A stretch of DNA of 36,624 nt from Candidatus Thorarchaeota archaeon (GTDB taxonomy: Archaea; Asgardarchaeota; Thorarchaeia; Thorarchaeales; Thorarchaeaceae): assembly GCA_018238205.1 (NCBI GenBank), contig JABCTV010000009.1:1-36624 (forward strand). The letters run 5' to 3'. The notes below the pieces were generated by a model. It saw nothing but the letters and a program-made list of their open reading frames with translations. It was not told the DNA's origin and made no database searches. This document shows positions 25,167 through 36,089 of this stretch, in pieces. The first letter of the stretch is position 1; every line of letters starts with the position of its first letter. A program made the position numbers and the translations under genes.

Positions 25167-25901
25167 ATGAAGGAAGCGAAAAAAATCTTCAAGACTGCCC
25201 TCGAAGAGGGAAGAATGTTTGTACTGGAGCACGAAGCAAAGGACATAATGAAAGCATATGGGATTCCCATTCCAGCTTATGATACTGCAGTAACTGCAGA
25301 AGAGGCTATAGAAAAATCCAAAGCTATCGGTTTTCCTGTAGTACTCAAGATCCTCTCCAAGGATGTTTTACACAAATCCGACGCAGGAGGAGTGAAAATC
25401 AATCTTAAGAATGAAGAAGAGGTTCGTAAAGCGTTCAACGAGATTATGGAAAATGCAAAGAACTATGGAAAAGAGAAAGACATTGATGTGGACCTGAGTC
25501 GAGGTGTATTCATTTCTGATTTTGCAGATATGGGCACAGAGATTATTGTTGGTGTCACTAAAGATCCTCAGTTTGGGCATGCATTAATGGCAGGTCTTGG
25601 TGGCATTTTTGTTGAAGTCCTGAAAGACGTATCTTTCAGATTGATTCCATTCACCGAGAATGATGCCAGAGAGATGTTGAAGGAACTAAAAGCATACAAA
25701 ATATTGGAAGGTATCCGTGGCGAACCTCCAAGAGATATAGATTCTCTAGTTAATGTCATGTTGGCTGTATCCAAGATGATTGCAGATAATCCGGAGATCA
25801 CAGAACTGGATTGCAATCCAACCTTTGTATACGAAAAGGGAAAGGGAACTCTAGTTGTTGATGCACGGATTCTGATTGGTAGCTCGGAAGCTAGCCACTA
25901 A
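25167..25901 (+). CDS. acdB: ADP-forming acetyl-CoA synthetase, beta subunit (ATP-grasp)
   Basis: The nucleotide-binding subunit, 244 residues, with an ATP-grasp fold. Blocks include EAKDIMKAYGIPIPAYDTA, GFPVVLKILSKDVLHKSDAG, GTEIIVGVTKDPQFGHALMA, GLGGIFVEVLKDVSFR and ITELDCNPTFVY. It stands as a separate gene behind acdA, as in Thermococcales, rather than fused as in some other archaea. ATG 25167 follows an AGAGCAGAGG tract. The last 11 nt overlap the convergent unknown gene. Confidence 0.95.
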   Translation: MKEAKKIFKTALEEGRMFVLEHEAKDIMKAYGIPIPAYDTAVTAEEAIEKSKAIGFPVVLKILSKDVLHKSDAGGVKINLKNEEEVRKAFNEIMENAKNYGKEKDIDVDLSRGVFISDFADMGTEIIVGVTKDPQFGHALMAGLGGIFVEVLKDVSFRLIPFTENDAREMLKELKAYKILEGIRGEPPRDIDSLVNVMLAVSKMIADNPEITELDCNPTFVYEKGKGTLVVDARILIGSSEASH

Positions 25902-27186
25902 TTAGCTTGTAAAGAAGAATCAGACCTCTCTTTATATCAGAGTCCTCAATTGGAGCGGTTGGAGAGTCTTTGGTATTACTGGCCAGTAGTAATATCAATG
26001 CAATAAGTCGTGGTACAAGACGGGCATATTGTAAGAGAAAATCCCTGTTTCCAGTAGAATCTACGATTAAACCTTCAAGTCGTCTGATTAAGAGCTGAAT
26101 GCGTTCATCAACTCCATCTCCAGGACGAAAACTCTTGAAAATAGCAACAGCTGATGAATCATTTTGAAGAAAGTCAGATGAAACTCCTACACTCTCTATT
26201 AGTTCTAATGCACCAACAATGATGGCATCATAGTGCTCTTCTTCCAGACGTTCAATACCCTGTTTCACGGCTTGAAGTTGGCCAAGTAGTCTCAATGAAT
26301 TTGTGAGAATGGAACGAGATGCGCCCGAGGTAGCCTTTGCCATCTGAATAAGATACTCACCATGTTCTTTCTCAAGACTTGCAGCTACTGATGCATTTAG
26401 CTTCTTTTCAAATCCGGGAGAGAAATTAACACTTGCAACCTTTGGAAGTAAAGTATGAGTCCCTAGTTGACGAACAATAGAGAGAGCTTTGAAATCGTCA
26501 AGGCTAACATAGAATAGAAGTATACGTACAACATCATAAGATGTTTCAAAATCAGCTTCTGACGCAACATTTCTACCCTGTCCCTTGCATGCAAATGCAC
26601 TAAGTAGAGCCCAAGCAGAGAGCATACCATTACAGAGCCGTTCAACCGCTCCTGATTTTTCAATTTCATGTTCTTCAAGAAACCTAGAGAGTTTGTCTGT
26701 AGATCCAGAGATCCTTTGAAGAGTTGTTCCACCAACATGAAGATCAGCAATGGATTTAATGAAACCACGAGCTTCACGGGAAGGGGGTCTCAGAACAATA
26801 CTTGGTTCCTGTCGCGTGACTGTCCACCACTTAGAAGCAGAAGTAAGGTAGTCAAGGAGGTCAACAGACATTGTCAGATGACTGTGATTGGCACTTGTTT
26901 CAGAGTCTATTAATGCTATCAAACGTGTTGTGAGATCAAGAAACCTATTGAGATGAATGGATAACTTTTCTCCAGCAAATACAAAATCAGTAAATCTAGA
27001 TACGACTGAGTTAATCTGTTCCGCTATTTTGTCATCGAGCTGTGTTTGCACGAGACCTCGATAGACATCAACTGGAGTTCTAGCCAATGTCTCATAGTCT
27101 CCTAATATCAAACAAGTAAAATGGATGGCATATAAAACACTGTGTTGTTTGAAATCACTTACCGTATCGCCTTGACCGCGCACCAT
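25891..27186 (-). CDS. Uncharacterised all-helical protein downstream of cis-prenyltransferase
   Basis: About 432 residues, predicted almost wholly helical, soluble, without Cys motifs or nucleotide-binding signatures I can see. The most distinctive segment is WWTVTRQEPSIVLRPPSREA near residues 122-141. The C-terminus is hydrophobic (ARLVPRLIALILLLAS) before an acidic tail. The likely start ATG 27186 lies inside the end of uppS (32-nt overlap); ATG 27213 would overlap further, and no good start exists just after uppS. The deep overlap suggests translational coupling to uppS. I cannot name a family. Confidence 0.7.
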   Translation of the reverse strand: MVRGQGDTVSDFKQHSVLYAIHFTCLILGDYETLARTPVDVYRGLVQTQLDDKIAEQINSVVSRFTDFVFAGEKLSIHLNRFLDLTTRLIALIDSETSANHSHLTMSVDLLDYLTSASKWWTVTRQEPSIVLRPPSREARGFIKSIADLHVGGTTLQRISGSTDKLSRFLEEHEIEKSGAVERLCNGMLSAWALLSAFACKGQGRNVASEADFETSYDVVRILLFYVSLDDFKALSIVRQLGTHTLLPKVASVNFSPGFEKKLNASVAASLEKEHGEYLIQMAKATSGASRSILTNSLRLLGQLQAVKQGIERLEEEHYDAIIVGALELIESVGVSSDFLQNDSSAVAIFKSFRPGDGVDERIQLLIRRLEGLIVDSTGNRDFLLQYARLVPRLIALILLLASNTKDSPTAPIEDSDIKRGLILLYKLISG

Positions 27187-27931
27187 AGGAACGTAATGCC
27201 CGCCAAATATCAATCCGTCTCACTGCAGGCCAGTAAATCTGTGCAAAGTATAGTTCAGAATAAGCGGATTGCCAGAGAAGGAAACCCGATAATCGCTCTT
27301 CGCCTGATGTTCGAATAATGAGATCTGGGTCTGGTACACCATTAGTGTAGAGATGGCCTTCAATTACATTCTCATTGATATCGGCAGGGCTCATTGTACC
27401 TGCTTCTATCTTCTCGCCAATGGCCTTCACTGCATCCACAAGTTCTGCTCGACCAGAGTAACCAATAGCCACATTGAGAATATGATCTGTATAATCTCTA
27501 GTTTCTTCTTCAGCAGCCATTATTGCAATCTGAACATCCTCTGGTAGTAAATCGACTCGCCCAATAGCTTGAATCCGAACTTTGTATTTATGAACGTCGG
27601 GGTTGTCAACGACTTCTGAGAACTTTTTTTTAGCAAGGGACATGATCTCTTCGACCTCATCCTTGTTTCTCTCAAAGTTCTCTACTGAAAATGCATAGAG
27701 TGTGCATACTTTGACCCCTGCTTCCCATAGAATACGTAGTACTTCCATAACCTTGGCTGCACCTTTCTGATGACCAAACCATGGAACATCCATACCCTGT
27801 TTCTTTGCATAACGTCGGTTTCCATCCAGAATGATACCAACATGACGGGGAGCTAATTCCTTGTCTAACTGACGATACAAGAAGTATTCGTATAATCGAT
27901 AGACAGGACCTGTAGTATTCAATAATAACAC
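27155..27931 (-). CDS. uppS: cis-Prenyltransferase (polyprenyl diphosphate synthase)
   Basis: Builds long-chain Z-polyprenyl (dolichol-type) diphosphates, the lipid carriers for archaeal glycan transfer, by adding isopentenyl units. Signature blocks: HVGIILDGNRRYAKK with catalytic D36, WFGHQKGA, TLYAFSVENFERNKDEV, and RTSGEERLSGFLLWQSAYSE. Length (259) is normal. The N-terminal 28 residues are hydrophobic/amphipathic, as in many archaeal members. The start is GTG 27931 or the nearby TTG 27922. It lies 61 nt after a Roadblock gene in an apparent operon with the MglA-like GTPase. Confidence 0.95.
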   Translation of the reverse strand: MLLLNTTGPVYRLYEYFLYRQLDKELAPRHVGIILDGNRRYAKKQGMDVPWFGHQKGAAKVMEVLRILWEAGVKVCTLYAFSVENFERNKDEVEEIMSLAKKKFSEVVDNPDVHKYKVRIQAIGRVDLLPEDVQIAIMAAEEETRDYTDHILNVAIGYSGRAELVDAVKAIGEKIEAGTMSPADINENVIEGHLYTNGVPDPDLIIRTSGEERLSGFLLWQSAYSELYFAQIYWPAVRRIDIWRALRSYGARSRRYGK

Positions 27932-27992: not shown

Positions 27993-28364
27993 CTAAATCA
28001 TGACTGCTACTTTTTCTGCAGCACGTTTCATGTCTAAGAATATGAGCCCAAGCTTGGCATTTGCAGTTGTAGAAACAGTAAGACAAGCGTTCATTCCCGC
28101 TTGGACAACAAGGAGCCAGCCATTGATTCCCTTGATATTTACCTGTTCAAGTTCACCTTTGCCTAGTTCCATTGCAGCCTTCTCTCCCAGTGTTAACATT
28201 GCTGCAGTCATAGCTGCGACCTTCGCCTCATCAACATCTGTGGGAAGTGCTGACACAATAGGGAGCCCTTCAACACTTACTATGGCACAGGCTTCAATCT
28301 CAGGAATACTTCCTTGAAGTTCATTCAGAACACCTTCGAGTGTATTTTCGCGGGATTCTCCCAT
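27993..28364 (-). CDS. Roadblock/LC7-domain protein
   Basis: A 123-residue single-domain Roadblock/LC7 protein: an N-terminal helix (LEGVLNELQGSIPEIEACAI), the strand pair AIVSVEGLPIVSAL, a central helix rich in Ala/Met (AKVAAMTAAMLTLGEKAAME), then WLLVVQAGMNACLTVS and a final helix ending RAAEKVAVMI. Roadblock proteins of the MglB type bind small GTPases as activating or scaffold subunits (known). ATG 28364 follows AGGTGA by six bases. It lies only 16 nt after the GTPase gene, mirroring mglA-mglB pairs, so a direct partnership is likely (inference). Confidence 0.9.
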   Translation of the reverse strand: MGESRENTLEGVLNELQGSIPEIEACAIVSVEGLPIVSALPTDVDEAKVAAMTAAMLTLGEKAAMELGKGELEQVNIKGINGWLLVVQAGMNACLTVSTTANAKLGLIFLDMKRAAEKVAVMI

Positions 28365-28380
28365 TTTATTTCACCTGATT

Positions 28381-28953
28381 TTACTTGTACATTCTTTTCA
28401 ATATGACTTCTCGTGCGATAGCTTGGAACGCCCTCTTAACTCCTACGCCCTGAACTGCAATAGTTTCATAGATTGGAACATTGCCTCCAAGACCAAGAAG
28501 ATCAAGCATTTCATCACGTGACATTCTATTGGGTAGGTCTCTCTTGTTGAGCATGACCACAATTGGGATTTCACGCCCAAGAGCATCACCCAAGAATAAT
28601 TTCAATTCTTCAAAGCTCTCCGTATTCTCATCACGCTGGTCTGGTGATGAGTCAGCAACAAAGAGGATACCATCTGTACCTTGTAGTACCACCTTTCTCT
28701 GGTGACGATGGCGCTTCTGTCCTGCAACTGTAAAGACGTCAAAGAGGACACGACCACCTGCACTCATAGGAACATAATCAAAAAACAGTGTTCTGTTTGT
28801 TTCATCCTCGATAGCAGTGAACTCTCCCTTTTGAAGACCTTCTACTTTTCCATAGAGCCATCTGAGAGCTGTTGTCTTACCACCAAGGGATGGTCCGTAG
28901 AAGACCAATTTCAAATGAATTCTGCCCTTGTCGTCTTTGCGAATTGTCAACAC
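28381..28953 (-). CDS. MglA/Ras-superfamily small GTPase
   Basis: 190 residues. G1 is GPSLGGKTT (20-28); the switch I region is NRTLFFDYVP (53-62), close to the MglA pattern; G3 is TVAGQ (75-79) with the catalytic-type Gln79; G4 is NKRD (136-139). The rest of the fold ends in a basic helix (REVILKRMYK). There is no C-terminal CAAX box or N-terminal myristoylation signal, so membrane attachment, if any, would be through partners. GTG 28953 is the likely start; an upstream promoter-like element lies at 29012-29021. It is flanked by Roadblock genes on both sides. Confidence 0.93.
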   Translation of the reverse strand: MLTIRKDDKGRIHLKLVFYGPSLGGKTTALRWLYGKVEGLQKGEFTAIEDETNRTLFFDYVPMSAGGRVLFDVFTVAGQKRHRHQRKVVLQGTDGILFVADSSPDQRDENTESFEELKLFLGDALGREIPIVVMLNKRDLPNRMSRDEMLDLLGLGGNVPIYETIAVQGVGVKRAFQAIAREVILKRMYK

Positions 28954-29011
28954 CTCATTATATCGAAACTTGGGTCCTGTGATGGGAGATTGATTGAGTT
29001 AGAAATCATGT

Positions 29012-29021
29012 CTCATAAAAG
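29012..29021 (-). promoter_or_regulatory. Possible TATA box for the GTPase gene
   Basis: The minus strand reads CTTTTATGAG preceded by AAAGG, about 60 bases before GTG 28953. The 191-nt gap 28954-29144 between GTPase and the preceding Roadblock gene is otherwise featureless, so a separate or additional promoter here is plausible. Confidence 0.35.
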
Positions 29022-29144
29022 CCTTTGTGGGACAAGAATCTCGTATCTCACCAGTCCAGACCTCTGATTTAGACCTTCAAGTAATATTAACTAATCTTGA
29101 GTAGATAAGACAAAGCAACCACTGCAATTGTGTGTTGCTTTTGG

Positions 29145-29609
29145 TCATACACGTTCGAGCTCAGCTAGAGCAGACTTGAGATCTTCTTCGTCAAGCTCAC
29201 TTTCCTTGGGGGACAATGGCTCAACTGCTAAGAATTTGTCAAGCTCGTCGGCAAGCTGTACACCTTGCTTCTTCATAACAAGCCGGATCAGACCAATGTT
29301 AACCTCTGCCTCTGATACTACACAGAGTACACCTTTTCCACAGGCTGAGGCGAAAATCTTACCCTCCGAAAATTCAGAAGTGACTATTTCAAGCTCCCCA
29401 ATCTGCAGGTTCTTGCCCTGCTCCTCACTTGCACAGAATACTGCGCTAGCGATAGCACCGATTGAATCGACATCTACAGGATAATAACTCAACTTTGACA
29501 CATTGGCGATTGTGAGCCCTGTTTTGTCGACAAGTATGACCTTCTTAATGCCCTTGTCCTGTCTTATGATCTCAGTCAGTATTTTATCGAAGGCTTTCGG
29601 ATCACTCAT
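29145..29609 (-). CDS. Roadblock/LC7-domain protein with acidic C-terminal tail
   Basis: 154 residues. The Roadblock fold covers about 1-120 (FDKILTEIIRQDKGIKKVIL, VDKTGLTIANVS, SIGAIASAVFCASEEQGKNL, KGVLCVVSEAEVNIGLIRLV). An acidic helical tail follows (PLSPKESELDEEDLKSALAE), which could contact a partner. Compared with its neighbours it is longer and carries the extra tail. ATG 29609 follows GGAGTG by about eight bases. It lies 15 nt after the previous Roadblock gene, so the two are probably co-expressed and may form a heterodimer. Confidence 0.88.
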   Translation of the reverse strand: MSDPKAFDKILTEIIRQDKGIKKVILVDKTGLTIANVSKLSYYPVDVDSIGAIASAVFCASEEQGKNLQIGELEIVTSEFSEGKIFASACGKGVLCVVSEAEVNIGLIRLVMKKQGVQLADELDKFLAVEPLSPKESELDEEDLKSALAELERV

Positions 29610-29624
29610 TCAAGTACACTCCAT

Positions 29625-29924
29625 TTATTCATTATTTTTGAGGACTACTAATATTACGCCCTCGCTCACATCAGGTGCGATGTTAATCTGACCCTTGGTT
29701 GTATCCAAGGTCAGGAATTGCAGCGACCCCTCACGAAGTTCCCTCACTGCATCGAGGGACTTTCCAACAAGAGAGGTAATAATTGCAGCGACGTTCTCGG
29801 TTGTTTCAGGGTCTAGATCACTGCTAAGTGGAAGACCCTCCATATTGGTCACAACAACTCCTCGTACACCTTCCTGCGACTTAAGCCGCGCTAAGATTTT
29901 TTGGAGTTTTTCTTGTGTAATCAA
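29625..29924 (-). CDS. Roadblock/LC7-domain protein, minimal
   Basis: 99 residues, a minimal single Roadblock domain: LQKILARLKSQEGVRGVVVT, then NMEGLPLSSDLDPETTENVA, a central helix (AIITSLVGKSLDAVREL) and a closing strand pair (INIAPDVSEGVILVVLK). The final amphipathic helix of many LC7 proteins is absent. The start TTG 29924 has GGGGAT eight bases upstream. It is the first gene behind the palindrome-containing promoter region. Confidence 0.88.
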   Translation of the reverse strand: MITQEKLQKILARLKSQEGVRGVVVTNMEGLPLSSDLDPETTENVAAIITSLVGKSLDAVRELREGSLQFLTLDTTKGQINIAPDVSEGVILVVLKNNE

Positions 29925-30021
29925 TTTACGGAATCCCCGCTGTTTTCAACTGTGCACTAACAACAATTACGCCGCAGTTGACTATTTTAGACTTGTGGAG
30001 ATATGCTGCTATGCACCTGTC

Positions 30022-30037
30022 CAAAATGCGCATTTTG
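30022..30037. promoter_or_regulatory. Perfect 16-bp palindrome, candidate operator
   Basis: CAAAATGCGCATTTTG is a perfect inverted repeat. On the minus strand it directly follows a TATA-like stretch (30041-30049) and precedes the Roadblock gene starting at 29924 by about 100 bases. A dimeric regulator bound here would sit over the expected transcription start. Confidence 0.5.
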
Positions 30038-30040
30038 AAC

Positions 30041-30049
30041 ATATACTAT
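30041..30049 (-). promoter_or_regulatory. Possible TATA box of the Roadblock operon
   Basis: The minus strand reads ATAGTATAT immediately upstream of the 16-bp palindrome. A start of transcription about 25 bases on would fall in or just past the palindrome. A second candidate, CTAAAATAG, lies at about 29982-29990. Confidence 0.35.
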
Positions 30050-30075
30050 GTTGTGTTATGCTAAAATAAAGTTAG

Positions 30076-30095
30076 CCGTGCTGCATTCAGCACGG
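30076..30095 (-). terminator. Hairpin terminator of the vWA gene
   Basis: An 8-bp perfect stem, CCGTGCTG/CAGCACGG, with a four-base loop lies about 30 bases beyond the stop of the vWA gene. On the minus strand it is followed by CTAACTTTATTTTAG, a T-rich tract. It resembles a bacterial-type intrinsic terminator and separates the vWA gene from the Roadblock operon. Confidence 0.6.
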
Positions 30096-30125
30096 TATAT
30101 TCTATTGTGATCTTGCATCTCAGGA

Positions 30126-31757
30126 TTATTCTTCATCTTCATCTTCATCGCCAAAGAGACGTTTTGAGCTTCTCTTCATCTGAGCAAGATTCTCTGTGAA
30201 GGCTTCATCTGCCGCGCCTGATGGAGCAGATGTGGGTGAGGCTTCCATCATTTTCTCTTGACGTTGAATCTCTTTCTCCTCTAAATCTAGAGCTCTGTCG
30301 GCCTTCTCAAGCATTGTCTGTACAGCTTGTGGAGCGGCTCCAGCCCTAATTTTCATAGCTGATCTGAAGGATGCAATCCTCTTGCGACCCTTTTCTCGGT
30401 CTCCACTAAAAGACTCTTCTCCAGCCTTTTGTGTGACAAAAGTCGCACCAACAGTTGGATCCAGAGTGGCCATGATCTCATCTTCCTTCTTTGAAACCTT
30501 TAGCTTGGTTGTAATCGCACGTACACGGCGGGCACCTGCCTCATCAGTATACGTAACTTGGACCTGAATTGGTACTTCGGATTCCTTGATCTCCTTCTTA
30601 GGAGCAATCTCAAAGTAGAGTTCATGATCTTCACCTACAACACCGATTTTGCTATGGCTCTTCTTCTTGAGTGTTTCAACTACTGCCCGTGATACTCCTG
30701 AAGCATCTTTTATGGTGACTCCAGGTGGCGTAACAAGGCGGACCTCTACATCACGACCTAGCATGGATGCACCCGCTAGTTCGGAGAGACTTCTATCAAG
30801 CTCATTTGGTGTGACAAAATACATCTGTCCACCAGTAGCCTCAGGTAGCAGACCAAGTGTCTTCAGTTCCATTCCACGACCAGAAGCAATACCTACAACA
30901 TCAACAGCGGCTCCAATATCTAAGAACATCTTTCCTAGATCTTCGTAGTACTTGTTTGCAGGAGTGACCTGGTAACCCTCAAGGGCGCCAATTCCCTCAT
31001 TTGCAAGACCGTCGGTGAGAAGTACAATTCTTCCTACATCTCGATGTTTCGAAATGACATAAGCCATTGCTGCTGCAGGCCCGAGAGCAGTACCACCCTG
31101 GTCGCGCAATGCTTGCACGTGACCCTTTATTTTGTCCGGGTTCTGTCCTACATTGACCAGCTTGATATTATCTAGGAGTTTTTTGGTGGACTCCATTATA
31201 GCATCAAGACTTGCAAAGGATTCGCGAGGTAACTGGATGGCTTCTCCAGTTTCCAGATTTCTCGATACAACAGTGCTCTCAAACTCGATGAGGCCAAACA
31301 TCGTGTCGGGGGCATTTGCAGCTAAACTATCTATAGAAGTATTCAGACTTCGCTTTACAGCAGCAAGATTTGCACCACTCATAGATCCAGAAACATCAAT
31401 CAATGCTAGGAAGGACTTACCACTTGGCGATACAATACCTGTACTAGTGTCAGTCGTATCTTTTGGTGGTTCTACAATAAAGTCTGTGTCATTTCCAGCA
31501 ACAACAATCTCGCCTTCAATAATATTCAGGGTACCACAGAATGGACAGATGAAATGTTTACCTACCTTCGGGTCTTCCTGAATTTGATCTAAACTAAGAA
31601 GGAAACCATTACACTTGTGGCATGCGATTGGCTTCCCAACTATCTTTGTGGTCTCGTGTGCAAGATGGCTAAACTCTACACGCAAGACGTATGGAATGTC
31701 GCTCATGATGTCTTTCGACGCTGGAAAGGACTCAGAGCTAGTTCTCAACATTGGCAT
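30126..31757 (-). CDS. Zinc-ribbon plus vWA-domain protein (Sec23/Sec24-like architecture)
   Basis: 543 residues. An N-terminal zinc ribbon has C46-x2-C49 and C71-x2-C74. The vWA domain (about 113-300) has an intact metal site: DVSGS (121-125), GGTALGP and LLTDGLANEG. A beta-rich segment follows (about 330-430; VEVRLVTPPGVTI, PIQVQVTYTDEAGARRV), then a helical segment with coiled-coil character and an acidic tail (GDEDEDEE). Zinc finger, vWA trunk, beta segment and helical segment is the order seen in COPII coat proteins Sec23/Sec24, whose Sec23 is a GTPase activator; no gelsolin domain is seen. ATG 31757 follows GGAGG. An ordinary vWA chaperone-like protein is the alternative. Confidence 0.85.
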   Translation of the reverse strand: MPMLRTSSESFPASKDIMSDIPYVLRVEFSHLAHETTKIVGKPIACHKCNGFLLSLDQIQEDPKVGKHFICPFCGTLNIIEGEIVVAGNDTDFIVEPPKDTTDTSTGIVSPSGKSFLALIDVSGSMSGANLAAVKRSLNTSIDSLAANAPDTMFGLIEFESTVVSRNLETGEAIQLPRESFASLDAIMESTKKLLDNIKLVNVGQNPDKIKGHVQALRDQGGTALGPAAAMAYVISKHRDVGRIVLLTDGLANEGIGALEGYQVTPANKYYEDLGKMFLDIGAAVDVVGIASGRGMELKTLGLLPEATGGQMYFVTPNELDRSLSELAGASMLGRDVEVRLVTPPGVTIKDASGVSRAVVETLKKKSHSKIGVVGEDHELYFEIAPKKEIKESEVPIQVQVTYTDEAGARRVRAITTKLKVSKKEDEIMATLDPTVGATFVTQKAGEESFSGDREKGRKRIASFRSAMKIRAGAAPQAVQTMLEKADRALDLEEKEIQRQEKMMEASPTSAPSGAADEAFTENLAQMKRSSKRLFGDEDEDEE

Positions 31758-31880
31758 CTAATTATTCGCCTCCAAAATTCTTAGCCACCATTTGCGTGAG
31801 GGAATTTAAGTCAATCGACAGTTGTTACGTCCTTGAATGTTCCAAAAGTTGATTTTGAGAGAAATGGCGCGGTCTAGCGA

Positions 31881-31893
31881 ATAAGATTTAAAG
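31881..31893 (+). promoter_or_regulatory. Possible TATA box for the divergent Roadblock gene
   Basis: The plus strand reads ataagatttaaag about 60-70 bases before ATG 31952. This fits a transcription start near 31915 and a leader of roughly 35-40 nt. It lies in the 194-nt divergent gap between the vWA and Roadblock genes. Confidence 0.4.
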
Positions 31894-31928
31894 ACTCCAA
31901 CGTCCAACACGATATTAGAAAGTTGAAA

Positions 31929-31940
31929 CCTCTTAAGAGG
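31929..31940 (+). promoter_or_regulatory. Palindrome covering the ribosome-binding site
   Basis: CCTCTTAAGAGG is a perfect 12-bp palindrome whose right half is part of the AAGAGGAG ribosome site of the Roadblock gene starting at 31952. In RNA it could fold as a 4-bp stem with a TTAA loop and hide the site. The stem is short, so the effect may be small. Confidence 0.35.
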
Positions 31941-31951
31941 AGAATTCACAG

Positions 31952-32320
31952 ATGGTAGACCAAGCTAAGATTGAAGAGATTGTTACTGAAACAATGTCGA
32001 ATAACGCAGACCTCCAAGGAATAATCGTTTGCGACGCAAAGGGAAAGGTGCTCTTTGGACATACTATTACTGGAGGTATCAAACACGAAGATGTTGCAAA
32101 TCTTGCGGTGAAAATAGCAGGTAACTCTTCTCAACTGACAGCAGGTCTTGACAAGGGAGGCCTCAAAGAAGTTAACATATCCTCGGATCATGGCCTTGTA
32201 ATTATCCTTGGTGATGTAAAAATAGTGATGGCTGCAGTTGCTGGAGAAGGAGCCCGCGAGAGCCAAGGTCTCTTATTGATGGCGCTTCGTAGAACTTTAC
32301 TCGCAATATTAGATAATTGA
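31952..32320 (+). CDS. Roadblock/LC7-domain protein, divergent from the vWA gene
   Basis: 122 residues: helix 1 (KIEEIVTETMSNNADLQGII), the strand pair IIVCDAKGKVLFGHTITGG, a central helix (VANLAVKIAGNSSQLTAGL), strands around VNISSDHGLVIILGD and a last helix (ALRRTLLAILDN). The fold is as in its three neighbours, but pairwise identity looks low, so it is an old paralogue, not a recent duplicate. AAGAGGAG precedes ATG 31952. A T-run at 32334-32338 shortly after the stop may end transcription. Confidence 0.85.
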   Translation: MVDQAKIEEIVTETMSNNADLQGIIVCDAKGKVLFGHTITGGIKHEDVANLAVKIAGNSSQLTAGLDKGGLKEVNISSDHGLVIILGDVKIVMAAVAGEGARESQGLLLMALRRTLLAILDN

Positions 32321-32498
32321 TATCAGAGTTACCTTTTTGTGCTTTAGATTACCGGGTCATAAGAAGAACAGAGGTATATTCTAATATAGCTCGGGTATTA
32401 CCCACGTCATACTAACGATATTTAGGCCTCTGTAACATCTGAATAATACAAACGCAGACGCGCCGAATTGATTGAAATTGCCGGGAAGGGAATGGGAC

Positions 32499-35400
32499 TT
32501 GGTCTATATAGAGAAGCTAGTATGCAAGGGCTTCAAATCATTCGGCCGAGACTCCGTTACTATAAAATTCAACAAGGGCTTCACATGCATTGTTGGTCCT
32601 AATGGTTCTGGAAAATCAAATGTAATTGATGCGATTTTATTTGTTCTGGGACAATTGAGCGCAAAAACGCTCCGTGCCACAGTCTTCTCTGATTTATTGT
32701 ATTCCCCTCCAAAACCACATATGCCACCAAAAGCCAAGTCTGCAGTTGTTGAACTCCATTTTAATAACAAAGATAGAAAACTGCAAGTTGAAGCAGATCG
32801 CGTTGTTATTGAGAGACAGCTTGATGACACAGGGAAGTCAGTTTGCCGCATTAATGGTAAAACCTACACTCGTGGTGCAGTTCTTGACGTTCTTGGAACC
32901 ATTGGTGTCGATCCTAATGGTTACAATCTTGTACTGCAGGGTGAGATTGCCCAAATGGTCAAGGTTAGCCCCAGTGAGCGACGCAAACTTATCGAAGAGA
33001 TAGCTGGAATATCTGCCTATGATGAACAGAAAGATCGTGCGCTAAAGAAACTAACAGAAAGCGAGAGTAATCTTGGAAAAGTAGATACTCAACTTCAAGA
33101 ACGTAGACGCCAGCTTGAGAAACTTGAAGGTGAGAGGGGAGATGCTCTGCGTCATAAAGGATTGAATGACCAGATAGAGAAATTCAAAATTGATATTCAA
33201 TCTTGGAGTATCATCAAGGGTAGATTAAGGATAGACACAATAAATGAAACTCTTGCTCAAAGAGCACAAGAGGCTGAAGGACTTGTCACAGAACTCGTAG
33301 AGGTTGAAACAAATAGCGGCACAACTGAAACCGAGATAGATACTATTGACCATGAAATAGATCAGATAACTGGAGGAGATTCATCAAGAGTTTCTGAACA
33401 ATATGGTATTGTTTCTGCAGCTGTGAACCATGTTAGATCTGATCTTGAACGTGCACAAGGAGAACATGACGGGTCTGCTAGTGATAGAGCGGGGTTGATG
33501 GAAGAGCTAGAAGAAACACAGGACGAGATAGCTCAAAATGAGAAACTAATGAAAGAGAAGAACGAAGAACTTCAAAAACTGGAGAAGGAAATCTCAGGAA
33601 CTTCAGCTCAGATTATTCGAATGGAAGATAGAGCAGAGAAAGAGCAGACTACGTATTACGAAACAACTCTTCGCTTACAGGATTTGAATAACCAACTACG
33701 TGCACTTGATGAGGGTGTTTCAGAAGTTCGATCATCAATTAAATCTGATAATAGAGAACTTGGTACATCGTATGAAGATATTCGTGATTCAACAGAGAAT
33801 CTTGAAAAAACAGTTGAGGACCTTGAACAGCTAAAAGGAATCATACCTGAAAAGAAAGAATCACTTGAGAAGACAGAACAGATTGAGTCCGAAAGAAAAG
33901 TTGAGATTGAAGAGATTATAAAACAGTTGAAGGTAGCAGATGCAGAAGTTGATGAGAGTGCAAAGATTGTTGCAGCAACTCGAGAGGAACTGATTAAGGT
34001 ACAGGCACGTCAAGATGCACTAAAAGAAGCAGAAGATACATTTCTGAAGAGGCGAAGAGCTCTAGCAAAGGTCCTTGAGCTAAGAGACACTGGTACTATA
34101 GAAGGAATCCATGGCACCGTTGCAGAATTGGGAACTATTAATCCAGATTATGCCACAGCTATGGAGATTGCAGGGGGCAATAGATTATCCCATATAGTTG
34201 TAGAAGATGATAGCGTAGCCTCTGCATGTGTGGATGTTTTGAAACGAGATAGAGTAGGAAGAGCCTCTTTCATACCCCTTGATAAAATCAAAACCCATAC
34301 ACCAAGAAAACTTCCAAATGATGCGGGAGTCATAGATTTTGCTCTTAATCTTGTGAACTTTGAACCGAAGATGAAACCAGCCTTCGAATTCGTATTCTCA
34401 GATACCATTGTAACTGAAGATTTTGATACTGCTAAACGATTAGGATTCAAGGGTCAACGTGCGGTTTCGCTCGAAGGCGACCTAGTTGAAAGGTCAGGTC
34501 TTATGACAGGTGGTTATTATCAAAAAAGTGCGGCGAGGCTATCACTTCAAGTAGAAGATACTAGTCCAGAAATAACAAAACGGCTTCAGGGTCTAGATGC
34601 TATTCTGAGTGAACTCCGTGAGAAACAAGAGAAAATGAGGAGCCAGAAAAAGAAAATTGATACTGAGATTCAAGAACTATCAAAGAAAAATTATCGTGGT
34701 CGACTTGATCTTGAAAAATATGAGGAGCGATATGATGAGCAAGAATATCGAAGTGGTATTCTGAAAGAAAGAATCGAGAAGGCTACACTCACAATCAATG
34801 AACTTGAGGCTCAAATTGCCAATCTCCAAGAACGTGATGATGAACTTACTGTCCAACGGGAACGTGTAATGGCACAACGTGACCAGTGCAATGAAGACCT
34901 TACAAAATCAGATTCTGCGAAATTGAATCAGGATATTAAAGATCTAAAAGAGGTCCTAGAGCAGTACCAGAAAAAACGTGAAAAGATGCAGAGTGACCTT
35001 ACAGCCCTTAGAGTTGGACTTGATGAACGGCTCGGACCAAAGGCTGTCGATATCGAGTCCAAAATCCAAGCCCTAGATGCAGTGCTGCCGGGATTTGAAG
35101 AACAGGTCAAGCGATTTGAAATGGGACTCGCTGAAAGAGAGAAAGAGTTTGTCAAGTTAAAGAGCGAGCGAGAAGAGATTGATGAGGCCGTTAAGGACAA
35201 ACGAGTCCGCCAACTAGCTTTGAAGGAGAAAATACGTAACCTAAGGATGAGACATGAAGAGATTCGTGAAGCTCAAACATCGAATGAGAAAGCCGTGTAT
35301 AGACTACAGACTGAACAAAATCGTCTTGAAGCGGATATAGTTGCATTTATCGCAGAACTTGGAACTCTCACTGATACAAATGAAGCACTTGAAGATAGAA

Positions 35401-36089
35401 AGGATGAACGTGAACTTACTTACAGAGAACTAGAAGAGTTTCAAGAGAAAATCAAAGAGATTGAAAGAGAACTTGAAGCAATGGGCCCTGTTAATCTGAA
35501 AGCATTAACAGATTATGAAACTGAACGAGATCGATATGACGAGATAGTAGATAAAAAGACCCAGCTGGAAGAGGAACGTAAAGAAATTCTTGCATTTATG
35601 GAAGAACTTGAGGCAGAAAAGACTCAGAAATTCCTAACGGTCTATAATGAGATTGCTGATAATTTCGCTACAGTATTTGCTCGGCTATCACCTGGTGGAG
35701 ATGGCACTCTAATGCTTGAAAACCCTGAGCACCCATTAATGGGCGGGATTACTGTAAGATCAAAACCAAGAGGTAAAGAATTAGTCACTCTTGACGCTAT
35801 GAGCGGTGGAGAGAAGACCATAACGGGTCTTGCTCTAATCTTTGCAATCCAGATGTACAATCCCACTAGTTTCTATATTTTTGATGAGATTGATGCAGCT
35901 CTGGACAATGTGAATGCTCACAATGTAGCCCTGCTAATCTCAGAGATGGCTAGAGCATCTCAGTTTGTTGTGGTATCATTAAGAGACACTACTGTTAGAA
36001 AAGCTGATCTTCTCATTGGCGTATCTAACCAAGATGGAATATCAAAGATTGTATCGGTAGATCTAGAAGAGGTGAGTGCTGAATCATGA
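32499..36089 (+). CDS. smc: Chromosome segregation/condensin ATPase SMC
   Basis: About 1196 residues. The N-terminal ATPase half has VGPNGSGKSN (Walker A, about 33-41). Long coiled-coil arms run to a hinge at about 540-680 (GTVAELGTINPDYATAMEIA ... LVERSGLMTGGYY). The second arm is followed by the C-terminal ATPase half with DAMSGGEKTITGLALIF (signature, M in place of the usual L) and FYIFDEIDAALDNVN (Walker B). It dimerises through the hinge and, with ScpA, organises chromosomes. TTG 32499 gives the canonical start VYIEKLVCKGFKSFG and has GGGAAGGGAA upstream. TTG 32472 would add nine residues. It overlaps scpA by 4 nt. Confidence 0.97.
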   Translation: MVYIEKLVCKGFKSFGRDSVTIKFNKGFTCIVGPNGSGKSNVIDAILFVLGQLSAKTLRATVFSDLLYSPPKPHMPPKAKSAVVELHFNNKDRKLQVEADRVVIERQLDDTGKSVCRINGKTYTRGAVLDVLGTIGVDPNGYNLVLQGEIAQMVKVSPSERRKLIEEIAGISAYDEQKDRALKKLTESESNLGKVDTQLQERRRQLEKLEGERGDALRHKGLNDQIEKFKIDIQSWSIIKGRLRIDTINETLAQRAQEAEGLVTELVEVETNSGTTETEIDTIDHEIDQITGGDSSRVSEQYGIVSAAVNHVRSDLERAQGEHDGSASDRAGLMEELEETQDEIAQNEKLMKEKNEELQKLEKEISGTSAQIIRMEDRAEKEQTTYYETTLRLQDLNNQLRALDEGVSEVRSSIKSDNRELGTSYEDIRDSTENLEKTVEDLEQLKGIIPEKKESLEKTEQIESERKVEIEEIIKQLKVADAEVDESAKIVAATREELIKVQARQDALKEAEDTFLKRRRALAKVLELRDTGTIEGIHGTVAELGTINPDYATAMEIAGGNRLSHIVVEDDSVASACVDVLKRDRVGRASFIPLDKIKTHTPRKLPNDAGVIDFALNLVNFEPKMKPAFEFVFSDTIVTEDFDTAKRLGFKGQRAVSLEGDLVERSGLMTGGYYQKSAARLSLQVEDTSPEITKRLQGLDAILSELREKQEKMRSQKKKIDTEIQELSKKNYRGRLDLEKYEERYDEQEYRSGILKERIEKATLTINELEAQIANLQERDDELTVQRERVMAQRDQCNEDLTKSDSAKLNQDIKDLKEVLEQYQKKREKMQSDLTALRVGLDERLGPKAVDIESKIQALDAVLPGFEEQVKRFEMGLAEREKEFVKLKSEREEIDEAVKDKRVRQLALKEKIRNLRMRHEEIREAQTSNEKAVYRLQTEQNRLEADIVAFIAELGTLTDTNEALEDRKDERELTYRELEEFQEKIKEIERELEAMGPVNLKALTDYETERDRYDEIVDKKTQLEEERKEILAFMEELEAEKTQKFLTVYNEIADNFATVFARLSPGGDGTLMLENPEHPLMGGITVRSKPRGKELVTLDAMSGGEKTITGLALIFAIQMYNPTSFYIFDEIDAALDNVNAHNVALLISEMARASQFVVVSLRDTTVRKADLLIGVSNQDGISKIVSVDLEEVSAES

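Follow-up and report, generated by a model that had tools for sequence, protein, structure and literature searches.

Small GTPases and Roadblock proteins are numerous in Asgard genomes. In the MglA-MglB polarity switch, the Roadblock dimer positions an arginine and the C-terminal helix of MglB drives nucleotide exchange; in Group 1 MglA proteins this arginine is intrinsic, adjoining the G2 threonine, and the G3 motif is TVPGQ. In the systems described so far, MglA and MglB are coupled at 1:1 or 1:2 (PMC4316618). For Asgard archaea, Tran et al. 2024 describe RB and RBLC7 proteins, with a helix-binding scaffold role proposed for Odin-RBLC7, and find that the GTPase genes of MK-D1 (Loki) are generally not in operons with RB genes and that layout-based matching of regulators is difficult (PMC10933270). 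Here we analyzed a 36,624-nucleotide (nt) stretch from a Candidatus Thorarchaeota archaeon (contig JABCTV010000009.1, positions 1 to 36,624; hereafter the window), in which one MglA-type GTPase gene is grouped with four Roadblock genes, RoA, RoB, RoC and RoD. Homology, gene order, four orthologous clades and conserved catalytic residues are established at this locus. We infer, with a probability of about 0.6, that it represents an ancestral Asgard GTPase switch consisting of one MglA-type GTPase and four dedicated, anciently separated Roadblocks.

A sequence-only reading of the window had proposed that the Roadblocks and a neighboring von Willebrand factor A (vWA) protein, referred to below as Sec23-like, control one GTPase as one system, and had suggested comparing gene order across Asgards. 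Our comparison covered Asgard genomes (metagenome-assembled genomes), with genes assigned by profile and lineages named, in short form, as in the database records, some of which look mislabelled. The core recurred in many lineages and was dispersed in Loki, Hel and Sigyn, and linkage of the vWA gene was confined to Thor. Gene order and the tree described below thus uphold the GTPase with its four Roadblocks as a conserved unit, but not the membership of the vWA protein. The gene order in Thor is smc, RoD (divergent), Sec23-like, and then RoC-RoB-GTPase-RoA followed by a cis-prenyltransferase gene (UPPS). The order RoC-RoB-GTPase-RoA without the Sec23-like gene was found in Hermod, Frey/Jord, Borr, Baldr and Njord, with RoD usually divergent and smc and UPPS often present, and the Heimdall array is RoB-GTPase-RoA, without RoC and RoD. 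RoB is followed by the GTPase gene within 500 bp in all 18 loci of these six non-Thor groups, mostly with a spacing below about 100 nt, in 21 of 31 Thor loci, the remainder mostly having longer spacers, and in none of 22 Loki/Hel loci. RoC lies directly 5′ of RoB in 30/30 Thor loci and 15/18 other array-bearing loci, and RoA orthologues are located 3′ of the GTPase gene in most Asgard arrays. When 16 genomes, most of them from lineages whose array is broken or partial, were searched, strong matches were found for RoA (16/16), the GTPase (16/16) and RoC (15/16); the RoD match was clear in the majority, and a few genomes gave a weak one or none. The recurrence of gene order across Asgard lineages rules out a local accident as the cause of the cluster and, together with the number of Robl hits in the source genome (13 per 3.57 Mb), indicates that the clustering of Roadblocks exceeds chance. 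Thor orthologues of the window proteins had mean identities of 97% for the GTPase, 94% for RoB, 90% for RoA and 84% for RoC, followed by UPPS (81%), Sec23-like (73%), RoD (70%) and SMC (70%), and no pair of the region is more constrained than the GTPase and RoB.

The four Roadblocks are distinct subunits older than the Asgard radiation sampled. Pairwise identity among the four window proteins is 16-29%, and in a maximum-likelihood tree of 103 Roadblocks, whose rows were pre-assigned by profile and whose bootstrap is not fully settled, RoA, RoB, RoC and RoD formed separate clades with support of 98-100 (clade support for RoA 100/98 and for RoD 100/96), each extending across many Asgard families. 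The tree and these identities rule out recent tandem duplication, and the earlier guess that the four were too divergent for recent duplicates, and so distinct subunits, was correct. RoA matched Pfam Robl_LC7 at 4e-17 and its profile matched the solved Roadblock 7f8m at 1.7e-31; for RoC the values were 2e-17 and, against Odin 7f8f, 5e-44, and RoC of the Odin array (L055) is 7f8f itself, identical at 93 of 93 residues. RoD scored under the 23-bit cut-off of Robl_LC7 (0.0019, 18.3 bits), and it was accepted as a Roadblock because its orthologue profile matched the solved Roadblock 9jq8 at 1.7e-25. The RoC orthologue profile also matched dynein roadblock light chains over nearly the full RoC length (E about 1e-24). 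RoC orthologues are strikingly near these eukaryotic proteins, and RoC may be related to the ancestor of DYNLRB1.

The window GTPase is closest to MglA in sequence and fold. The PDB profile search gave MglA as the best match at 4e-46, with Arf next at 4e-17, and the first 14 Foldseek matches of the GTPase model were all MglA. Its motifs are GPSLGGKT at G1, R54-T55 at G2, TVAGQ at G3, without the Asp of DxxG, and NKRD at G4. The arginine beside the G2 threonine was present in 10 of 11 GTPase representatives and absent from the Borr one; in G3 the Thr, Ala and Gly are invariant and the Gln nearly so, with Ala replacing the Pro of TVPGQ. R54-T55 and TVAGQ make it likely that this GTPase supplies the same arginine by itself and needs only to have it positioned. 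Pfam suggested Arf/Ras instead, and a Sar1/Arf identity is ruled out by TVAGQ in place of DxxGQ and by the far closer MglA matches in PDB and Foldseek. According to the open frame and Pfam, a Rag-type C-terminal Roadblock domain is not present on this 190-aa single-domain protein. A second MglA-like GTPase, with an N-terminal extension of approximately 100 residues, is encoded in nearly all Thor genomes searched (L171, G000:C212:19869-20411), and L172, another GTPase-Roadblock neighborhood of the same genome, contains consecutively a GTPase, a 306-aa unknown protein and a Roadblock-like frame.

Among the Roadblocks, RoB matched Robl_LC7 (1e-9) and MAPKK1_Int (LAMTOR3, 1.5e-7) in Pfam, and MglB best (3e-6) and LAMTOR2 (1e-3) in PDB profiles. 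Its identity across Asgards is about 55-70%, and its C-terminal helix (EELKAALxELEK) is conserved and placed as the helix of MglB that acts as guanine nucleotide exchange factor (GEF). (Alignments A2-A6 are one C-terminal residue short in most non-window rows owing to coordinate trimming, and the conclusions are unaffected.) By analogy with MglB, RoB is probably both GTPase-activating protein (GAP) and GEF of the array GTPase: a RoB dimer would sit on the switch regions and position the catalytic R54 and the magnesium-binding T55, and the C-terminal helix would promote nucleotide exchange. RoA might tentatively be assigned as a further regulator, pairing with itself or with RoB.

RoC and RoD could plausibly form a heterodimeric scaffold tying the switch to the membrane or to a partner protein, at slightly less than even odds. 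They are divergent neighbors in array-bearing lineages and a tandem pair in Loki, Hel, Sigyn and f27 genomes, and nothing in the present data speaks more strongly for their partnership than the persistence of this pair after the other genes had scattered. The same distribution bears on an alternative in which an MglAB-type pair consists only of RoB and the GTPase (RoA possibly included) and RoC/RoD are a separate scaffold, serving for instance SMC or cytoskeletal proteins, that has nothing but its location in common with the pair. The two sets split naturally, Heimdall having RoB-GTPase-RoA without RoC/RoD and Loki, Hel and Sigyn having RoC-RoD without the rest; RoD lies immediately 5′ of smc in several lineages, broken-array ones included; and RoC belongs to the dynein light-chain type, for which GTPase binding is not required. 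This is opposed by the position of RoC directly 5′ of RoB, often at very short spacing, in 45 of 48 Thor and array-bearing loci, and by the joint persistence of the families in nearly all genomes tested, and we consider separate modules rather unlikely. The adjacency of RoD and smc was seen in Thor, Hermod and Frey/Jord as well as in L177 and L181. In several lineages, even where the array is dispersed, RoD immediately precedes smc and is read in the same direction, and a link to chromosome organization is possible.

Returning to the ancestral switch of one GTPase and four Roadblocks, several observations weigh against it. The Odin array is RoD/RoC-RoB-RoA, with the GTPase gene located elsewhere. 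In Loki and Hel, as in Sigyn, the array genes are dispersed, and the GTPase is more divergent in Loki/Hel. No RoD was detected close to the array in some lineages, and in Heimdall/Hod the RoD hits were weak only and two RoC-like genes stand in tandem. The place of MglB Asn37 is taken in RoB by an invariant Thr30, and that of Arg98 mostly by Lys, sometimes by Arg or Gln, so that the MglB analogy is good and not exact. In addition, an AlphaFold2 model of RoB and the GTPase as a single chain (an in-frame read-through of L102, with alignment rows from other genomes) reached a predicted template modelling score (pTM) of only 0.48; the GTPase domain folded well and the Roadblock moderately, and their relative placement was not predicted. 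Because the alignment was shallow (14 paired rows) and the modelled chain had one RoB copy only, this result is neither for nor against an interaction. As to the tandem RoC-like genes of Heimdall/Hod (L180, 5228-7428, and L186), a GTPase gene is located nearby, and they perhaps replace the RoC-RoD pair.

The features of the region are summarized in Table 1; the six-gene cluster from RoA to RoD had been placed correctly by the sequence-only reading, all six genes being open frames at those positions.

Table 1. Genes of the array and conserved neighbors (window coordinates)
Feature	Length (aa)	Position	Strand	Remark
Cis-prenyltransferase (UPPS type)		27155-27931	-	Pfam 7.5e-76; 3′ neighbor kept in several lineages
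RoA, Roadblock/LC7	123	27993-28364	-	Last gene of core array
MglA-type small GTPase	190	28381-28953	-	Single-domain
RoB, MglB-like Roadblock	154	29145-29609	-	Probable GAP/GEF partner
RoC, short Roadblock (LC7 type, without C-terminal helix)	99	29625-29924	-	
Sec23/Sec24-core vWA protein	543	30126-31757	-	Thor-specific neighbor, not core
RoD, fourth and fastest-evolving Roadblock	122	31952-32320	+	Divergent, upstream of smc
SMC protein		32472-36089	+	Pfam SMC_N 3e-67 and hinge; conserved RoD neighbor

The neighborhood might also be shared without a shared mechanism, essential housekeeping genes (smc, cis-prenyltransferase, acyl-CoA ligase and the GTPase) simply keeping their ancestral order while the Roadblocks act elsewhere. 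UPPS, the ligase genes and smc are likewise conserved neighbors, and several further GTPases and Roadblocks are encoded in the Asgard genomes examined. However, four Roadblocks beside one MglA-type GTPase are functionally coherent, coupled MglA/MglB genes are known to coevolve (PMC4316618), and the RoC-RoD and RoB-GTPase pairs survive the scatter of the remaining genes, which makes this explanation quite improbable. At the other extreme, the five proteins may form one stable complex inherited from the Asgard ancestor, with a RoC-RoD dimer and a RoA/RoB dimer carrying the MglA-type switch, and its parts may be the sources of eukaryotic Roadblocks, RoC of the dynein LC7 light chain and RoB and others of Ragulator subunits; we regard this proposal as unlikely. 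With regard to the neighbors, the cis-prenyltransferase gene is located 3′ of RoA in Thor, Baldr, Hermod, Njord and Frey/Jord. A 440-aa protein without a Pfam match is encoded at 25891-27213 of the window; its position is kept in Thor and it is fast-evolving (55% mean identity).

The vWA protein is truly homologous to the Sec23/Sec24 core but has no gelsolin domain. Pfam matches were Sec23_trunk (5e-10), Sec23_BS (1e-7, just under the cut-off) and a weak zf-Sec23_Sec24, and the order of zinc finger, vWA trunk, beta-sandwich and helical domain is that of Sec23/Sec24. The zinc cysteines C46, C49, C71 and C74 and the metal ion-dependent adhesion site (MIDAS; DxSGS...T...D) are intact in all homologues aligned. 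The PDB profile matched Sec24 at 1.7e-17 over profile positions 44-470, and the AlphaFold2 model (mean predicted confidence, pLDDT, 86; pTM 0.88) had Sec24/Sec23 chains or close relatives as all of its top 46 Foldseek matches (E 4e-30, template modelling (TM) score 0.70). The gelsolin domain was not matched in Pfam or in the model, and residue 543, following the helical region, is the last of the chain. Considered on its own, the vWA protein might be a regulator of the ArnB kind, controlled by phosphorylation, and not a vesicle coat, which is possible though doubtful: 8s05, the ArnAB structure titled archaeal ortholog of Sec23/24 core motif, is among the matches and the MIDAS is intact as described, but Sec24/Sec23 is closer than ArnB in sequence and fold (TM 0.70 versus 0.48), and the zinc finger is within the chain as in Sec23/24.

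Although the Sec23-like protein was found in 80 of 228 genomes of the phylum, its gene was linked to the array in 27/29 Thor loci and in 0/35 loci elsewhere, being unlinked in the other Asgards that have it. Two Thor genomes lack an intact copy at the locus, the gene being missing in L085 and a mere fragment in L086. Such Thor-only linkage and decay indicate that the Sec23-like gene is not core, contrary to its earlier assignment to one system controlling the GTPase; the preferred view is that this Sec23/24-core (or ArnB-like) protein joined the neighborhood in Thor, and it may at most be an effector of the GTPase. The gelsolin domain of Sec23 carries the GAP arginine. The parallel with Sec23 and Sar1 drawn by the sequence-only reading implied a COPII-like module, with the Sec23-like protein as GAP or effector of the GTPase, and the Sec23/24-core fold and sequence and the location of the gene inside the Thor array are in line with it. 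The parallel fails in that the protein lacks the gelsolin domain and the GTPase is MglA-type rather than Sar1-type, and linkage is missing outside Thor despite the protein existing there; with the loss or decay in L085 and L086, we judge such a module highly improbable. As a core with the vWA protein as GAP it is ruled out by the Thor-only linkage and the absent gelsolin domain. In one single-contig Thor genome, Sec23-like, RoD and smc occur once more in truncated form (L043, G036:C1:931703-934777), reflecting duplication or an assembly artefact.

With this array, one GTPase and four Roadblocks are identified that are grouped in most non-Loki Asgard lineages; it therefore gives a defined five-protein set for assay, which would reveal whether Ragulator-like or MglAB-like regulation predates eukaryotes. 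It is also where the dynein LC7 family probably has its prokaryotic home.

Compared with the MglA-MglB switch of Myxococcus and Thermus, the array has in common an MglA-type GTPase coupled to a Roadblock gene, the arginine beside the G2 threonine, a G3 motif without Asp, and the C-terminal helix on RoB. It differs in having four distinct Roadblocks, where there are one or two MglB per MglA, and TVAGQ for TVPGQ. No report of a 1:4 GTPase:Roadblock Asgard locus was found in the literature searched, which mostly excludes subscription papers. The actinobacterial conservon (CvnA-D) is likewise a conserved locus with an MglA-like GTPase and an MglB-like Roadblock, but the window array has no histidine kinase CvnA or CvnC and three additional Roadblocks.

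With Ragulator (LAMTOR2/3, LAMTOR4/5) and the Rag GTPases the array shares the number of four Roadblocks, of a long type (RoA, RoB, RoD) and a short LC7 type (RoC), a candidate heterodimer in RoC-RoD, and a weak likeness of RoB to LAMTOR2/3 and of RoC to LAMTOR5. Unlike the Rags, the array GTPase is single, MglA-type and without the C-terminal Roadblock domain, and the Roadblocks are one short and three long, not two and two; RoC being the sole short one and RoD long argues against a short heterodimer of the LAMTOR4/5 type. No LAMTOR1-like membrane-anchored wrapper was present among the array genes or conserved neighbors, no genome-wide search having been made. RoC aligns over nearly its full length with the dynein roadblock light chain (DYNLRB1/LC7), but it is embedded in a GTPase array and the locus has no dynein gene. 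Sec23/Sec24 and archaeal ArnB share with the vWA protein the zinc finger, vWA, beta-sandwich and helical core, from which the latter differs by the missing gelsolin domain, the intact MIDAS and the absence of a Sar1-type partner. The Asgard Roadblock structure 7f8f, RoC of the Odin array, fits Odin-RBLC7 of Tran et al. The array itself is not mentioned there, and with respect to the separation of GTPase and Roadblock genes, the present data agree with that study for Loki and show the opposite in most other lineages.

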